From assembly GCA_003557545.1 (NCBI GenBank), contig PWOD01000168.1, forward strand, positions 1 to 18,389: a DNA stretch of 18,389 bases, written 5' to 3'. Positions 3,292 to 11,232 of this stretch are shown piece after piece; the stretch's first letter is position 1; each line of letters opens with the position of its first letter. The stretch is from a bacterium. Its GTDB lineage: Bacteria > T1Sed10-126. Under the pieces are notes generated by a model, which worked only from the letters and a program-made list of their open reading frames with translations, did not search any database and was not told where the DNA came from. Position numbers and translations under genes: made by a program.

Positions 3292-3320
3292 TTGACAGAG
3301 ATTAATAAACAGTCTAAACT
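3292..3320 (+). promoter_or_regulatory. Sigma-70-type promoter of the efflux operon
   Basis: A perfect -35 TTGACA at 3292-3297 is followed after 17 bases by TAAACT at 3315-3320 (4 of 6 matches to TATAAT). Transcription would start near 3327, about 30 bases before the TetR start. No other convincing promoter is seen up to 10157, so this probably drives the whole operon. Confidence 0.7.
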
Positions 3321-3329
3321 ATACGGACG

Positions 3330-3341
3330 GACTGGTCAGTC
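3330..3341 (+). promoter_or_regulatory. Palindromic operator, probably bound by the adjacent TetR protein
   Basis: GACTGGTCAGTC is a perfect palindrome of two five-base arms around GT. It lies just after the predicted transcription start and just before the ribosome site of the TetR gene, the classic position for autorepression. Many TetR/AcrR-family operators have a similar GAC-rich, GTC-rich dyad with a GGT or CGG centre. Binding by this protein is inferred. Confidence 0.6.
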
Positions 3342-3357
3342 AGGAAGGAGATTAAAG

Positions 3358-3966
3358 ATGATTTCAGAAAAAATCGAGACCGAGACAAAAGAGGTTTTAA
3401 TTCTCAACGCCGCCCGGGAAATATTTGCTAAAAAGGGCTATCATCAGGCCCGTGTGTCGGAAATAGCCCAACAGGCCGGAGTGGGTAAGGGAACTGTTTA
3501 TCGTTATTTTGATAATAAATCCGGACTTTTTGTAAGTCTGGTTGAGGATATAGCTGAACGGATTTTAGGCTGGGTTGAGCAGGCACTCCGTGAAAGTGAC
3601 GATCCCGAAAAACAGCTTGAAATAATTGTTCTGGCCCATCTTAAGCTGTTCGATGAAAATCCTGAGGTGGTCGATATAATTGTTAATGAAGGGCTGGAAA
3701 GGACCGGGATTAAGGAGTATGAAGTTGTTACCCGGTGGGATAAATATCTTGATGTGGTGAGAGATATTTTGCGCCGGGGAATTGAACAGGGATGTTTTAA
3801 ACAGCTTTCGGTGGAACGTGGTACATGGATTATTATCAGTGCTATCTGGGGCCTGTTACGCAATGCCGTGACCTTTGGTCTGACCGATTTAAATACTGCT
3901 TATCGTGATGAGTTTTTCAATATATTGAAAAAAGGAGTGTGTCGATCAGCTGATGAAAACAGTTAA
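3358..3966 (+). CDS. TetR/AcrR-family transcriptional regulator
   Basis: A one-component repressor of 202 residues. The N-terminal helix-turn-helix (about residues 14-58) contains ILNAAREIFAKKGY, then VSEIAQQAGVGKGTVYRYF and NKSGLF, the hallmark of the family. The rest is helical and would bind a small ligand and dimerise, as in AcrR-type regulators. The ATG at 3358 is chosen because AGGAAGGAG ends seven bases before it; an in-frame TTG at 3292 is part of the promoter -35 box and has no ribosome site. The gene is first in the operon and overlaps the TolC gene by 14 bases, so it most likely controls the pump encoded behind it and itself. The ligand cannot be told from sequence. Confidence 0.9.
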   Translation: MISEKIETETKEVLILNAAREIFAKKGYHQARVSEIAQQAGVGKGTVYRYFDNKSGLFVSLVEDIAERILGWVEQALRESDDPEKQLEIIVLAHLKLFDENPEVVDIIVNEGLERTGIKEYEVVTRWDKYLDVVRDILRRGIEQGCFKQLSVERGTWIIISAIWGLLRNAVTFGLTDLNTAYRDEFFNILKKGVCRSADENS

Positions 3967-5290
3967 AATTTGGTTTGTCGGTCTGCTGATTTTGACATTG
4001 TCCGGACTGCTTCTGTTAGCTGTTCCGGCGGCCGCCAGTAAACCGTTAACCCTGAGTGATGCATACAGGATTGCATTGAGATCAAATGAAAATCTAATGG
4101 TTCTGCGGGAACAGTTGAAAGAATCGGAGGAAGAGGTGGTAGTGGCAACTTCCCATATTCTACCGCAGCTTGATCTGCGGGCGACTGCGGTTAGAGGTCG
4201 GCAGCGGCAGCCTTTTGCTGTTGATCAACTGGGAAATATATCTCCGGATGGATCGGTTAGCACTGAGGATTCATGGCGGGCTGAAGCAGTTTTAACTCAA
4301 CCGCTGTACCGGGCCGGGCAGCTGTTGTCAACCCGGGAGATTGCTCGTTTGCGTCGGCGTGAGATAGAACTTGATAATTTCTATCAAACCCAGCAGGTAC
4401 TGTTCGTTGTGGCCAGTCGGTTTTATGCGGTAAAACAGGCAGAAAAACAGGTGGAAATCTGGGAAAGCAGTCTGGCAAGGGCTAATAAACAGCTGGCCCG
4501 CTCAGAAGCGTTATTTGAGCAGGGGATGATAACCCGAACTCCAAAGTTAAGAGCCAGAGTTCAGGTGGCTGAAGCCGAACGGGAGTTGACCCGGGCAAAC
4601 AATCGTCGCCAGCTGGCTTTTTCTCAACTGCAGCTGGAACTGGGCGGGGAGGAGATTGAGCAGCTTGCCGGTGTAGAGCTGGTAGAAAAAATTCAGCTGG
4701 AAAAACTTCAGGAATATTATCAACAGGCCCGTCGTCACCGTCGGGATTACCTGGGAACGGTGGAGCGTCTGGAACAGGCAAGACGGTACGTGGAGGTTAA
4801 GCTGGCCGGTCGTTACCCGTCGGTTGACCTGCAACTGAGGGGAATTAGGTATGATGAAGAGATTGCCGGGGAGGATCAGGAATGGGAGATCATGGGCACG
4901 GTTAATTTTCCTCTGTTCAGCGGTGGGCGGATTTCAGCTGAAATCCGCCAGGCCCGAGCGATGTTCAGCCAGACCGAAGCAGGACTGTCCAGGCTGCGCC
5001 GGGAGCTTAAGGTTCAGGTTGAAGAGGCTTACCGGCAGGTCACCACACGGCGGGGAGTTTTACGCTCTCTCCAGCAGGAGGTGGCCGCCGCTCGTGAAAA
5101 CTATCAGGAAGTGGCTGCTAAGTTTTCCGAGGGACTTGCTGATGCCGTTGATGTCAGTGATGCCAATACTATTTTGAATGAATCGGAACTATTGCTCTCT
5201 ACCGAACAGTTTAATTTACAGTTAGATCTATTGAGTCTGCAACTGGCAGTGGGTAATTTTCAAGCGGAACTTCTGACCTCTGAACTTTAG
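3953..5290 (+). CDS. TolC-like outer-membrane efflux channel
   Basis: An outer-membrane factor of 445 residues that would form the trimeric exit duct of a tripartite pump. An N-terminal signal peptide (KTVK, a hydrophobic core to about residue 24, then PAAA) is probably cleaved after residue 28. The mature part starts with LTLSDAYRIALRSN, the typical opening of OEP repeats, and has two long coiled-coil repeats: one with ALFEQGMITRTPKLRARVQVAEAE near 184-207, the other with the matching KFSEGLADAVDVSDANTIL near 391-409. The beta-barrel strands are marked by LPQLDLRAT and YPSVDLQLRG. The start overlaps the TetR gene by 14 bases, with GGAG about 15 bases upstream. Its presence implies an outer membrane. 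It could also serve other exporters. Confidence 0.9.
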   Translation: MKTVKIWFVGLLILTLSGLLLLAVPAAASKPLTLSDAYRIALRSNENLMVLREQLKESEEEVVVATSHILPQLDLRATAVRGRQRQPFAVDQLGNISPDGSVSTEDSWRAEAVLTQPLYRAGQLLSTREIARLRRREIELDNFYQTQQVLFVVASRFYAVKQAEKQVEIWESSLARANKQLARSEALFEQGMITRTPKLRARVQVAEAERELTRANNRRQLAFSQLQLELGGEEIEQLAGVELVEKIQLEKLQEYYQQARRHRRDYLGTVERLEQARRYVEVKLAGRYPSVDLQLRGIRYDEEIAGEDQEWEIMGTVNFPLFSGGRISAEIRQARAMFSQTEAGLSRLRRELKVQVEEAYRQVTTRRGVLRSLQQEVAAARENYQEVAAKFSEGLADAVDVSDANTILNESELLLSTEQFNLQLDLLSLQLAVGNFQAELLTSEL

Positions 5291-5353: not shown

Positions 5354-6463
5354 ATGAACAGGATAAACCGCCGTGGATTATTTTCTATAGTTGTAATCTG
5401 TGTGGCCTTACTATCGCTGGTGGGCTGTGCTGACCAGGGTGAGGAGATAGAGCAGGAAGAGCGGCGGATTGCTATTGAACCGGTTGAGGCCGTTACTATT
5501 AAACTGGAGGAAACGGTCAGCGCAATTGGGTCGATTGAAGCCACCGAAGAGGTGATGATCAGGCCGGAGCTGAGCGGTCGTATAGAACGGATAAAATTTG
5601 CGGAAGGCAGCTGGATTGAGAAAGACCAGCCGCTCTATGAGATTGAAGCGGTAGAGCTGCGTGAGGAGGTTGAAGCACTGAAATCCTCACTGCATGCGGC
5701 TCGAGTCTCACGCGAAACTACCGAAAAGGATTATCAAAGAATGAAAAATCTTTTCCAGCGTGGGCTTACGCCGGCTCAGCAGTTTGAGCAGGCCGAGCAG
5801 CAGTATCAAACGGCAAAATCTCGGGTTGATGAGCTATCGGCCCGGCTTCGCCAGGCACAAAAACGATACAGTGATTCAATAATTATTTCACCCCTGGAAG
5901 GATATGTTAGTGAGATCCTTGTCGATACCGGTAATTTTGTTGGTAGTGGGGATGAACTGGCAGTGATCTATCGTTCCCGCCGTCCTGAAATCAGTTTTAC
6001 TGTTCCTGAACGGCACTCTAACCGGGTTGATTCCGGTCAGCTGGTTCGGGTGCGAACTGCTGCTTTGCCGGGTCGTCAGCTGGAGGGACGTGTCAATTTC
6101 GTCAGCCCGGTGATTAGTCCCGGTTCACGTTCTTTGCTGGTTAAAGCGCTGCTTCAGGAGAACGATCTGCTGTTACGTCCCGGCGGATTTTCTCACGTAG
6201 AGCTTGTGCTGGCCGAGCGGCCCCAGCGGCCGGTTATTCCTGAAGAGGCACTGGTTGCCACCCGGGAGGGTCATATGGTTTTTGTGGTTGAGGATGAAAC
6301 GGCCCATAGTCGGGAGGTTGAGGTGGGAATGAGAATACCCGGCAAGGCGGAGATTGTTTCTGGCCTGGAGATTGGTGAGATTGTTGTTCGAACCGGACAT
6401 ATGAATCTTCGGGACGGGTCGCCCGTCCGCTCGGTACAGGGTGAAGGTGAGCAGCTTCAATGA
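5354..6463 (+). CDS. RND efflux periplasmic adaptor (membrane-fusion lipoprotein)
   Basis: A HlyD/AcrA-type adaptor of 369 residues that would join the inner-membrane pump to the TolC channel. The N-terminus is a lipoprotein signal: RINRR, a hydrophobic stretch and the lipobox LVGC, with C25 as the acylated residue. Domains in order: a lipoyl half (about 60-95, GSIEATEEVMIRPELSGRI), a coiled-coil hairpin (about 100-170, with RMKNLFQRGLTPAQQFEQA at its turn), the second lipoyl half (IISPLEGYVSEILVDTGNFV), a beta-barrel (about 210-280) and the membrane-proximal domain with VIPEEALV. AGGGTGA lies six bases before the ATG. It follows tolC by 63 bases and overlaps the RND gene by four (ATGA), which argues for coupled translation. 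The substrate is not evident. Confidence 0.92.
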   Translation: MNRINRRGLFSIVVICVALLSLVGCADQGEEIEQEERRIAIEPVEAVTIKLEETVSAIGSIEATEEVMIRPELSGRIERIKFAEGSWIEKDQPLYEIEAVELREEVEALKSSLHAARVSRETTEKDYQRMKNLFQRGLTPAQQFEQAEQQYQTAKSRVDELSARLRQAQKRYSDSIIISPLEGYVSEILVDTGNFVGSGDELAVIYRSRRPEISFTVPERHSNRVDSGQLVRVRTAALPGRQLEGRVNFVSPVISPGSRSLLVKALLQENDLLLRPGGFSHVELVLAERPQRPVIPEEALVATREGHMVFVVEDETAHSREVEVGMRIPGKAEIVSGLEIGEIVVRTGHMNLRDGSPVRSVQGEGEQLQ

Positions 6464-9400
6464 TCTGGAATTTCTGTATAAAACGTCCGGTATTTACTAC
6501 TGTAATCTTTTTAATTCTGGCTATCTTTGGTATCTATGGATATTCTGATCTACCGGTTCGTAATTTTCCTGATATTGATATACCGGTTGTCAGTGTTGAC
6601 GTTGTCCTGCCGGGGGCAGAGCCGGAGGTTGTGGAGCGGGAGATAATCGATCCGCTGGAGGAGGAAATAAATACAATCGAAGGGCTGGATACGCTGCAAT
6701 CTACCGCCCGCGAACAGGTGGCATCGATTACTGCTGAGTTTAATCTTGAGCGTGATATCGATATTGCCGCCCAGGATGTTCGAGATGCTGTTGAACGTGC
6801 CCGTCGCCGTTTACCCTCTGATGCCGAGGCACCGATTGTCCGTAAACTTGATATGGATGCCATGCCCATCGTCTGGGTCGCCTTCACCGGTGATGAGCGC
6901 TGGGATGAGGTGCGGATGTCCGATTATGTAGATCAATATGTGGTTAATCGACTGGAGCCGCTTCCGGGGGTCGGTCGCGTCATGGTCGGCGGTGATCAGC
7001 AGTATGCCGTGCGGGTGGTTTTAGATCATGAAAAACTTGCAGCTCACAGGGTTACTGTTCAGGACGTTGTGAGCACAATTCAGGCTAATAACGTCGATAT
7101 TCCCTCCGGTCGAATTGAAGGTAAAACACGTGAATTTATGGTTAAGACGCTGGGCCGGTTGGATAGTCCCGAAGCTTTTAACCGGCTGATAGTCGGTCAG
7201 GGTCTGGAGGGCCCGGTCCGGCTGGCTGATGTCGGTGAGGCCCGGGATGGTGTGGAAAGTGATCGCCGGCTCTCCCGCTTTAACCGGCTGCCTGCCCTGG
7301 GGGTGGGAGTCATACAACAGTCCGGTGCCAATACCGTTGAAGTGGCCCAACAGGTTGTCCGGCGGATGGAGGAGATAGGTCCTGACCTTCCGGAGGGTCT
7401 TGACTATCATATCGCCAGCGATCAGTCGGAGTTTATCAGTGAATCGATTCGTGATCTGCAGGTCTCGATACTGCTTGCGACACTGCTGGTTTTTGTTGTC
7501 ATAATGTTTTTCCTCCGCTCTCTCGGGGCCACCTTGATTACTACCGTTGCAATCCCCACCTCGCTGGCCGTGGGTATGGCACTTATCTATGCTTTCGGTT
7601 TCAGTATGAATGTGATTACTCTGCTGGGTTTGATTCTGGTGATTGGGATTGTGGTTGACGATGCCATAGTTATACTGGAAAGCTCCTACCGCCATCTTGA
7701 AGAGGGTAGTTCTCAGAAAGCCTCGGCTCGGGTCGGTACCACCGAGGTTGCTTTTGCTGCCATCGCTAATACCCTGTCCCTCGGTGCTGTCTTTATTCCG
7801 GTAGCTTTTACCCGGGGAATTATCGGTCGGATATTCTTTGAATTTGGGATTACTGTTGCCGTTACCATCTTTGCCTCGACCTTTACAGCCCTGACCCTCA
7901 CTCCGATGCTCTGTTCTCGATTTTTACGTGTTTCTCCCAGCCGGGGATGGGTCTCTCGCTCGATTGATCGGGGTCTGGATCGACTGGGTGATTTTTATAA
8001 CCTGGTTTTGAACTGGAGTTTAAAACATCGGGGTATGGTGGTTTTGCTGGCCGTTGTAGTCCTGGTTAGTGGCATTCTGTTTTTCCTCGGCCTTTCGACT
8101 GAATTTCAGCCGGATATCGACGCTGGTGAGTTTATTCTGTCATTTGAGACAGCCGAGGGTACAACCCTCAGGGAGACCGATCGTTATGTGACACAGATTG
8201 AAGAATATTTAGAAAAGCAGGCTGAAGTGGATAATTTTTTCCTTCTGATCGGGGGGATGGGCGCCGGAGAAGAGGTTAATTCTGGAATGATAATTGTTGG
8301 TCTGGTCGACCGGGCCGATCGGGCCGATCATGAACAGGTGATCATGGACCGGTACAGGAATGATTTAGAGCAGATACCTGGTGGTCAGATATATACTGTC
8401 CAGTTTGGTGGTCCGGGTGGCGGGGAAGCTCCCCTTCAGGCGGTTATTCAGCATGAAGATCTTGAGGAGCTTGATCGGCTGCAGCGAGAGATCACCGATT
8501 GGATGCGGCAACAGCCCGAGTTTGTCGGCGTTGATGCCGATCTGTCGTTGGAAAGACCTCAGGTCGAGGTTCGGTTTGATCGGGATATCGCCGCTCAACA
8601 TGGCATATCAGTTACTGAAATATCTCAGGCACTTCGTTATCTGTTGAGTCAACCTGAGATTGGCGAGGTAGAAATTGGTCAGCAGCGTTATGATTTAATA
8701 AGTGAAATAGCCAGCCGTGGTCGGACCGTCCCGGATCTCCTGGAAGAGATTTATTTGCGGGATAGCGCGGGTGAACTGGTGGCCCTGGCTAATCTGGTTT
8801 AACTGTCAGAGGGTGTTGGTCCCAGTGAAATTGGCCATTATAACCGCCGTCGGGCAGTAATTGTTTCAGCCTCTACTCCTCCCGGTGTGATACTGGGCGA
8901 TGCCAATGCCCTGCTCGAGCGTTATCTAATAGAAAACCTTCCGCCGGATTCTGATTGGGAGATGGCCGGCACGGCTGAACTGATGGCCGAGTCTTTTGGC
9001 TATCTTACCGAGTCTTTGATCCTCGGGATCATCTTTGTCTACCTGGTAATGGCCGCCCAGTTTGAATCATTCCTCTATCCCTTGATAATTTTGATGACTT
9101 TGCCTCTCGCCGCAGTAGGGGCCTTTGGGCTGCTCTATATTTTCGGTATGACCTTCAACGTTTTCACTTTTATTGGGATCATTATGCTGGTGGGTCTGGT
9201 GACTAAAAATGGTATATTGTTGGTTGATTATACGACTGTCATGGAGGGACGTGGACAGGAGCTTTTCGCCGCCGTGGCCGAGGCCGGCCGGGTACGATTT
9301 CGTCCGGTCTTAATGACTGCGGTATCTACCATACTTGGTATGATGCCGATCGCCCTCGGATATGGGGTTGGTGGAGAGGCCCGTGCACCTATGGGCTGGG

Positions 9401-9864
9401 CTGTTGTTGGTGGAATGTTTTCCGCCACCGTGTTAACCCTGCTGGTGATTCCAGTTGTTTATACCTTGTTCAGCCAGCTGGCAAATGTCTGCACGAGAAA
9501 CTGCCACCGGCTTGCTCTGAACGCAGTAGCCCTGCTCAGCTTTATCATGGCTGGTTGGTTCTTTTACGCAGCCATTGTTTATTTTCAAGGTCCGATCGTT
9601 TTTCTGTTAATTATTCTGGCTCTTTCACTGGCTGGATTCTCCCTGCTGCTGTTTTTACACAGCCGGCTTGTAAAACTTTATATGCCATTGTTTGGTCTGC
9701 TGGCTTTGGCTGGACTGCTGCTGTTGATTACCCCCGGAATTTTTAAAGAATTGATCCCTCTGCTGGCTCCGGTGTCCAGTGGGATTTTGTTACTGCTTCT
9801 CGGTGTGGCCGGATTAGGATTTTTAAATCTTCCCTCGATTACTGCAGTTCTGGAGGAAAAATAA
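6460..9864 (+). pseudogene. RND efflux pump, inner-membrane subunit, interrupted by an in-frame TAA
   Basis: A proton-driven RND transporter of the AcrB/HAE1 kind. The first part has 780 residues; TAA at 8800-8802 stops it. The same frame continues through LSEGVGPSEIGHYNRRRAVIV to the stop at 9862-9864, so a single base change accounts for the break. Before the stop: the first helix, porter domain, TM2-6 with the proton-relay pair D400-D401 (VVDDAIVIL), TM7 and most of the second porter loop. After it: the end of the loop, TM8-12 and the relay lysine K916 (VTKNGILLVDY). No ribosome site or good start follows the TAA; the first in-frame GTG (8887) has none. The usual family end falls near residue 1007, but about 127 more residues follow with some four hydrophobic helices. 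The start overlaps the adaptor gene. Non-functional unless the TAA is an error or is read through. Confidence 0.88.
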
Positions 9865-10157
9865 TGAAACTATTACAACTCAGTTTTCGTTTTGAATATC
9901 GTGAGACTATGGAGAATATTTTAGACGGTTACCAGCTGACAGATTATATCTGTTATCCGATGATTGAAGGAAAAGATAGCGATGGTAAACTTCAGGGTTC
10001 CAAGGTGCATCCGGGAAATATGACGGTAATTCAGGCCCAGGTGTCGGAGGAACAGATAGATTCCCTGCTGGACGAGCTTAAGGAGTTTAAGCAGGCCAAA
10101 CCATCCCATGAGCATCTCCAGGCTCTTCTGATTCCACTGGAAAGGCGTCTTAGCTGA
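9864..10157 (+). CDS. PII-like, PG0541-type transporter-associated protein
   Basis: A small soluble protein of 97 residues. It has the PII-like ferredoxin fold pattern: a first strand MKLLQLSFRFEY, a helix, YQLTDYICYPMIEGKDSDG with a flexible loop, GSKVHPGNMTVIQAQV as a central strand pair, EEQIDSLLDELKEF as the second helix, and a final strand LQALLIPLE. This matches small proteins encoded next to RND and CusA-type pumps (PG_0541 family), relatives of nitrogen-signalling PII proteins. It probably forms a trimer that binds a nucleotide or metal and acts on the pump; that role is inferred. GGAGG lies eight bases before the start, and the ATG shares one base with the pump stop, so it was made with the full-length pump. 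The 3' end overlaps the convergent PAP2 gene by eight bases. Confidence 0.75.
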   Translation: MKLLQLSFRFEYRETMENILDGYQLTDYICYPMIEGKDSDGKLQGSKVHPGNMTVIQAQVSEEQIDSLLDELKEFKQAKPSHEHLQALLIPLERRLS

Positions 10158-10740
10158 ACAGTCTCGACACTTTCCGATAGAGCTCTGTCGTACGGATTTT
10201 TTTCCAACCCGCCAGTTCCAGGTAGTAGGCCAGGACAGCACAGGCAGCTCCGACCAGCCAGCCGCTGATTATGTCCAGGGGATAATGGACACCCACCGCC
10301 ACCCGGGACAGGCCAACCAGCACTGTTATAACGGCAATTACCCATCCCCAGTTAGATTTACCACAGCGGAAGAAGACATAGACAAAGACTGCGGTGGCTA
10401 CCGCATGGTTGCTGGGCAGGGAAAAATCTGGTGCTGTAGAAATATAGGGTGAGGCTCCGGTCAGGGGGTTAAACCCTCCGGCAGCGTAGGGGCGTAATCG
10501 CTGGAACAGCTGTTGAAGTAGTTCGCTGAGGGGATAGCTGATTAATTGTCCCAGGGTGATAACAGCCGGCAGCTGCCAGCTATCACGAGTCCGTTGGAAC
10601 AGCCACACAGCCCAGAGAACAGCAAGAAAAATAACAAATCCTTCCTGGCTGTAGTCGGCCACCGTAGTCCAGAAACTGAGGAGAATAGTGGTCGAACCAA
10701 CAGTCATGGTTAGTTGATGAATAGTCTCAGTTGATAACAA
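10150..10740 (-). CDS. PAP2-family membrane phosphatase
   Basis: An integral-membrane lipid phosphatase of the PAP2 superfamily, 196 residues with about five or six hydrophobic helices. Motif 2 PSNH (catalytic-type H112) and motif 3 SR-x5-H-x3-D (S145, R146, nucleophile-type H152, D156) are intact. Motif 1 ends in the expected RP (R83, P84), but the lysine of KX6RP is replaced by Q76. Relatives remove phosphate from undecaprenyl pyrophosphate, phosphatidic acid or phosphatidylglycerophosphate; the substrate here cannot be told. The start is taken as TTG with AAAGGAG ten bases upstream; a later ATG at codon 12 has no ribosome site. The ribosome site overlaps the end of the DHFR gene, three bases away, so the two are coupled. 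Confidence 0.85.
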   Translation of the reverse strand: MLSTETIHQLTMTVGSTTILLSFWTTVADYSQEGFVIFLAVLWAVWLFQRTRDSWQLPAVITLGQLISYPLSELLQQLFQRLRPYAAGGFNPLTGASPYISTAPDFSLPSNHAVATAVFVYVFFRCGKSNWGWVIAVITVLVGLSRVAVGVHYPLDIISGWLVGAACAVLAYYLELAGWKKIRTTELYRKVSRLFS

Positions 10741-10743
10741 TAG

Positions 10744-11232
10744 TTAAAACTCCTTTCGTCTGTACAGGTAGATCTTAAAAGGCCAGGGATTTTCGGCTCC
10801 CTGAGGTTGGGAAATTAATAGTTCCTTATCCCAGGCTTCCGGCTGCAGGTCGGGAAAATAACGGTCTCCGTCAAAACGGTACTGGATAACGGTCAGGTAG
10901 AGTTTTCGGGCGAGCTCGATAAACTGAGAATAAATTGAGGCTCCTCCGGCAACGATTAACTCATCTTCCCCCGGACAGCAGTTCAGGACCTCCTCAATTG
11001 ACCGGCAAACTGTTACTCCCGCCGGCTGATAGTCCGATTGTCGGCTTAATACGATTAATCGCCGGCCATCCAGCTTTTTTGGGAGTGACTGATAGGTTCG
11101 CCGTCCCATGATAACGGTTTTACCCATGGTCAGATTACGAAAAAAGCTGAGGTCGGCCGGGAGATGCCAGGGCATTTTCCCGGCGCGGCCGATGGTTCCC
11201 TGGAGGTCAACTGCGGCTATCATGCTAATCAA
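10744..11232 (-). CDS. folA: Dihydrofolate reductase
   Basis: Reduces dihydrofolate to tetrahydrofolate with NADPH; 162 residues, the normal size. Seen are the Met20-loop segment GRAGKMPWHLPADLSFF with W22 and the catalytic D27, then GKTVIMGRRTYQSLP, IVAGGASIYSQF for NADPH binding, and KLYLTVIQ, which all line up with E. coli numbering when the TTG at 11232 is the start. An ATG four codons later has better spacing to a weak GGCAGG, so the true start may be 11223 (159 residues), which would trim the first beta strand. It lies between a NERD protein gene and a PAP2 gene in a three-gene minus-strand unit. No thymidylate synthase gene, a frequent partner, is nearby. Confidence 0.95.
   Translation of the reverse strand: MISMIAAVDLQGTIGRAGKMPWHLPADLSFFRNLTMGKTVIMGRRTYQSLPKKLDGRRLIVLSRQSDYQPAGVTVCRSIEEVLNCCPGEDELIVAGGASIYSQFIELARKLYLTVIQYRFDGDRYFPDLQPEAWDKELLISQPQGAENPWPFKIYLYRRKEF

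Follow-up and report, generated by a model that had tools for sequence, protein, structure and literature searches.

An RND multidrug efflux permease frame in 'Candidatus Busufiota' with a lineage-specific C-terminal extension of four predicted membrane helices

The permease frame of an efflux operon from the phylum 'Candidatus Busufiota' continues for 127 residues beyond the RND family core, and this tail, in which four additional membrane helices are predicted, is a real, lineage-specific add-on that is so far limited to one phylum of two genomes. The reading that we tentatively prefer is that the tail is a covalent membrane accessory of its own pump, with the PG0541-family PII-like protein encoded directly downstream being a separate regulator that acts as in tail-less relatives. 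The window, meaning the whole stretch of DNA that was analysed, comprises the 18,389 nucleotides of contig PWOD01000168.1, and the assignment of its genome to 'Ca. Busufiota' is well supported, though indirect. For this phylum (GTDB T1Sed10-126), PMC11382960 lists two genomes, 2.15-2.2 Mb in size, both from the sediment of hypersaline soda lakes. The only same-phylum relative available, MAG T1Sed10_126 (PWHN01000032.1), served as the sister, giving two genomes of the phylum in all.

Results

Organisation of the efflux operon

The genes form an efflux operon of the tripartite multidrug type in the order TetR-TolC-adaptor-RND-PG0541, in which the following features were delineated:

3292-3966, plus strand: TetR-type regulator, which opens the efflux cluster (Pfam TetR_N, 5.7e-18)
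3953-5290, plus strand: OEP, TolC-like outer-membrane channel (Pfam OEP, 9.9e-44)
5354-6463, plus strand: periplasmic adaptor (membrane fusion protein; Pfam HlyD_D23, 2.4e-29)
6460-9864, plus strand: frame of the RND permease, HAE-1 / RND_permease_2 type, 1134 residues long and containing an in-frame TAA (PF00873, NF033617)
8800-8802, plus strand: TAA stop, RND codon 781; in the intact frame of the sister MAG this codon specifies an amino acid
9481-9861, plus strand: C-terminal extension, residues 1008-1134, with four predicted membrane helices, TM13-16 (hydropathy; sister homologue)
9864-10157, plus strand: PG0541-family PII-like protein of 97 aa (NF045581, 51.4 bits, cut-off 45)

The stop codon of the adaptor gene overlaps the start of the RND gene, and in the sequence TAATG at 9862-9866 one A is common to the RND stop codon and the PG0541 start codon, as had been described for this junction in the original prediction. 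PAP2-like phosphatase and dihydrofolate-reductase-like genes occupy 10150-11232 on the minus strand. The sister MAG carries the same operon with its PG0541 gene, followed in the same order by phosphatase-like and dihydrofolate-reductase-like genes on the opposite strand.

Family assignment of the permease core

Profile positions 2-1020 of PF00873 (ACR_tran) are covered by the RND frame with 925.7 bits and '1 TAA' inside the match, which is the full-profile match expected of an HAE-1 RND permease. The best NCBIfam match of the frame was NF033617 (RND_permease_2), whose curated cut-off was missed because the frame was scored as two pieces. Residues 1-780 gave 4.3e-200 against NF033617 and 2.5e-76 against TIGR00914 (CusA/CzcA), assigning the pump to the HAE-1 (multidrug) rather than the HME (heavy-metal) permeases. 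The translation contains the proton-relay motifs VVDDAIVILE, TKNGILLVDY and RFRPVLMTA, with two Asp in TM4, Lys in TM10 and Arg in TM11, which we take to be the equivalents of AcrB D407/D408/K940/R971. Using Kyte-Doolittle hydropathy with one threshold for core and tail, exactly 12 hydrophobic segments were found in the core. The pump thus shares with HAE-1 permeases such as AcrB and MdtC (NF033617) the twelve-helix core, the family profile from end to end, the neighbouring TolC and adaptor genes and the DD, K and R proton-relay motifs, but adds to them 127 residues with four more predicted helices beyond TM12.

An in-frame stop codon in the window's copy

As assembled, the window encodes 780 residues, followed beyond the TAA by the remainder of the RND frame; the open frame expected of an HAE-1 permease is therefore broken at codon 781 in the window, whereas that of the sister runs uninterrupted for 1144 codons from stop to stop and ends in a tail of 128 residues with four predicted helices. 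The original prediction of one continuous pump protein had overlooked this TAA. The stop at 8800-8802 arose either by recent nonsense mutation or through a mistake in the assembly, and the pump may be dead in the window's genome. That the window's copy is a fresh pseudogene, so that the tail and the coupled PII-like gene no longer function in that genome, is possible but doubtful: the TAA does lie inside the assembled frame, but it is a single, isolated stop in a frame that is otherwise intact, with conserved residues on either side and an intact counterpart in the sister, and one wrongly assembled or misread base in a draft of 239 contigs (2,151,867 bases) would give an identical picture. As such a loss would be limited to the window's copy, it is compatible with every other reading of the tail.

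Predicted topology of the tail

The tail comprises the 127 residues after VIPVVYTLFSQL, which ends at residue 1007, and the PF00873 match ends ahead of it, with the final residues of the core (residue 195 in the downstream ORF of 325 aa). The hydropathy scan bore out an extension of about 127 residues with four hydrophobic stretches, as originally proposed for 9481-9861, giving four Kyte-Doolittle segments with means of 2.05, 2.81, 2.36 and 2.36. The following elements were assigned, each helix being represented by its best 17-residue hydropathy window:

9484-9504, plus strand: NVCxRNC patch, the best-conserved stretch of the tail, predicted cytosolic, TM12-TM13 loop (alignment with sister)
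9526-9576, plus strand: TM13, tail residues 16-32
9595-9645, plus strand: TM14, tail residues 39-55
9682-9732, plus strand: TM15, tail residues 68-84
9751-9801, plus strand: TM16, tail residues 91-107

The TM16 helix may sit a few residues further along, that of the sister being at 98-114. The helix windows are uncharged, except for K89/E90 at the edge of TM16, and positive charges are found in the predicted cytosolic loops (first and middle; R6/H9/R10 and H60/R62/K65 of the tail). The C-terminal end of the tail is predicted to be cytosolic, with about 16 helices per subunit in all, a number that agrees with the one first suggested, as 12 core and 4 tail segments were obtained by the same hydropathy test. 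Structure prediction of the C-terminal third, carried out with two sequences, yielded helices with a mean pLDDT of 45.7 and no usable fold. No family match was found for the tail in Pfam or NCBIfam, with none in Pfam even at E 10.

Conservation of the tail in the sister MAG

The tails of the window and the sister are homologous (E 5e-13). Identity between the two genomes is 34% in the tail, 71% in the RND core and 58% in the PII-like protein, and the least conserved 127-residue window of the core is still 54% identical; judged by these alignments, no part of the RND-PG0541 gene pair changes faster than the tail. Consistent with this, dN is 0.77 in the tail versus 0.22 in the core (dS being saturated). 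The smoothed hydropathy profiles of the two tails nevertheless correlate with r = 0.80, above the maximum of 0.66 reached in 2000 permutations, and this, together with a homologous tail in the intact frame of the sister, indicates that the tail is more than chance. Differences in the tail at codon positions 1, 2 and 3 were 0.59, 0.40 and 0.67, compared with 0.75, 0.66 and 0.74 for permuted codons, position 2 being the least changed. Given this codon-position pattern and the retained hydropathy, the tail behaves as a translated, membrane-embedded segment, its helical character being kept while its residues drift. None of the sister's three other RND proteins has enough spare frame to hold a tail of this kind, and only one place in that genome is matched by the tail model.

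Distribution of the tail among RND proteins

The RND matches listed from 145 diverse genomes, strong in 131 of them, comprise about 150 proteins, and C-terminal ends were inspected at the 34 places with about 60 or more open-frame residues past the profile match. Besides that of the sister, no multi-helix tail was found among the about 150 listed RND proteins: three of the 34 inspected ends are TolC-like channel fusions, the rest, the sister excepted, are short or polar, and the remaining listed proteins have too little room for a four-helix tail. The ending had been called unusual for the RND family, on the understanding that it should not prove to be a common one, and this held in the survey, where the candidate explanation of a common RND ending was rejected for want of a second multi-helix case. 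The TolC-like fusions (L126, L130 and L131) are likewise C-terminal additions, but they consist of >400 channel residues in which only one segment is hydrophobic, in contrast to the four helices predicted here. A search of 386 diverse genomes using the tail model gave convincing E-values only in the two carriers, all other matches being weak (E 0.002-0.05) and partial, with several crossing stop codons. Plasmids gave no match to the tail, and none was found in 43 genomes of the phylum containing the closest other PG0541-linked pump. A search of the available papers for RND proteins with extra helices found no report.

The PG0541-family neighbour

Scoring above the curated cut-off of NF045581 and linked to a transporter gene as is expected of the family, the downstream neighbour is, by profile and predicted fold, a genuine PG0541-family member with the fold of PII-like proteins, in line with the original description of a PII-like gene of the PG0541 type behind the pump. 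The structural model has a beta-alpha-beta-beta-alpha-beta fold at modest confidence (mean pLDDT 64.3); the PDB matches listed in a fold search with this model all come from the PII and PII-like group, led by GlnK3 (E 1.2e-3), and a sequence profile from 20 PG0541 members reaches a PII protein at 6.2e-6. The protein is ordinary for family NF045581 in its score, its place right behind an RND gene and its PII-like fold, but has VHPG where the family commonly has VWPG (His for Trp), as do a few other members. A search of genome contigs with an alignment of the PII-like proteins returned the sister MAG alone, and a search of the available papers for PG0541 function found no report.

Matches to NF045581 were obtained in 50 of the 386 genomes, and at 40 of the 50 other places inspected (the sister and 39 more) a same-strand RND gene lies directly upstream. 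Those 39 PG0541-linked pumps stop 2-34 residues past the core, with no membrane helix, and overlapping stop and start codons are frequent in the other RND-PG0541 pairs also. The RND-PG0541 pairing and its tight spacing are therefore widespread and independent of the tail; with 39 tail-free linked pumps, pairing needs no tail, and the idea that PG0541-linked pumps are generally marked by one was rejected. The suggested co-occurrence of tail and PII-like gene is seen in both carriers, although these represent one lineage (two genomes, one phylum) and lend it little weight.

PG0541 genes lie right behind RND genes in many unrelated lineages (L040-L083). Sub-threshold matches to the PG0541 model include PII-like proteins beside SbtA-like bicarbonate transporter genes (L085, L089) and, as a weak match, beside a DabA/DUF2309-like gene (L087), the neighbours being identified by eye. 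PII-like partners are known for SbtA and DabA type systems, so these matches support the PII assignment and hint at transporter control. Other weak or moderate matches, again judged by eye, lack an RND gene immediately upstream and lie behind RNase E/G-like genes (L086, L088) or, in one case, an oxidoreductase gene resembling glutamate synthase (L075). PII-NG proteins are encoded alongside CzcABC pumps (PMC7726332), which likewise place a PII-superfamily gene in an RND operon; there, however, the pump is a metal pump, the PII gene comes first in the operon and no tail is described (PMC7726332).

Discussion

In the preferred reading, a four-helix C-terminal module would have been added to a proton-driven RND permease in the lineage to which both known 'Ca. 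Busufiota' genomes belong. The tail helices would most likely lie against the membrane domain of their own pump, on the side that faces the lipid, where they could stabilise the pump or tune its lipid environment and substrate handling. By analogy, the PII-like protein probably regulates the pump, and would do so from the cytosol in the fashion of SbtB and SbtA, with the tail not required. The small membrane proteins AcrZ, YajC and WatS1 bind and modulate RND pumps (PMC10710835); the tail would resemble them in placing membrane helices against such a pump, but they are separate small proteins bound in trans, whereas the tail is covalent and has four predicted helices. An identity of 34% with kept hydropathy, and codon position 2 least changed, fits a membrane-packing element, and on these patterns a loosely constrained membrane accessory fits better than a conserved PII docking domain. 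Points against the accessory reading are the poor tail model (mean pLDDT 45.7), the lack of a Pfam match and the interruption of the window's copy.

The strongest rivals to the accessory reading are a near-neutral add-on and a docking module. The former, in which the tail arose when a stop codon was lost or when the frame fused with the gene of a small membrane protein, and is tolerated and stays hydrophobic without having a specific task, is somewhat unlikely. Low identity, the high dN of the tail relative to the core (dS saturated) and the detection of homologues only in two genomes of one phylum would suit it; however, the tail has been kept in two genera at 127 and 128 residues with four helices and the NVCxRNC patch, and a useless tail would be expected to be lost or scrambled in one of them.

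The original prediction took the tail for a docking or sensing module of the PII-like protein, much as GlnK grips AmtB and SbtB grips SbtA, with a PII-like trimer on the cytosolic face gripping the tail loops, perhaps at the NVCxRNC patch. In its favour, the PG0541 gene directly follows the tail in both carriers, that best-conserved patch is predicted to be cytosolic and the PG0541 model extends to PII-like proteins beside SbtA-like and DabA-like genes. However, 39 other PG0541-linked RND pumps have no such tail, and the tail has diverged far more rapidly than the protein it would bind (34% versus 58% identity), so that the proposal fared poorly and is now considered unlikely. Its more specific form, in which multidrug efflux by a phylum-specific 16-helix pump would be switched on and off by a PII-like nucleotide sensor acting at the covalent four-helix module with its cytosolic Cys-x3-Cys patch, is less probable again. 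SMR proteins are of comparable size and have four helices, the first of which must carry an acidic residue (Glu) for transport. That the tail is a second, SMR/EmrE-like transporter or channel fused to the pump, as four helices in 127 residues might suggest, is highly improbable and SMR membership was rejected, as the window's tail has no Pfam match up to E 10 and TM13 contains no acidic residue in either tail.

To our knowledge, RND pumps of the HAE-1 kind are nearly invariant at twelve helices, and the 16-helix pump predicted here would mean that an RND membrane domain can grow by four. In many bacterial lineages, PG0541 PII-like proteins are coupled to efflux pumps that have no special docking domain; cultivated bacteria with ordinary pumps that lack a tail should therefore be suited to testing whether drug efflux is under PII-type control at all.
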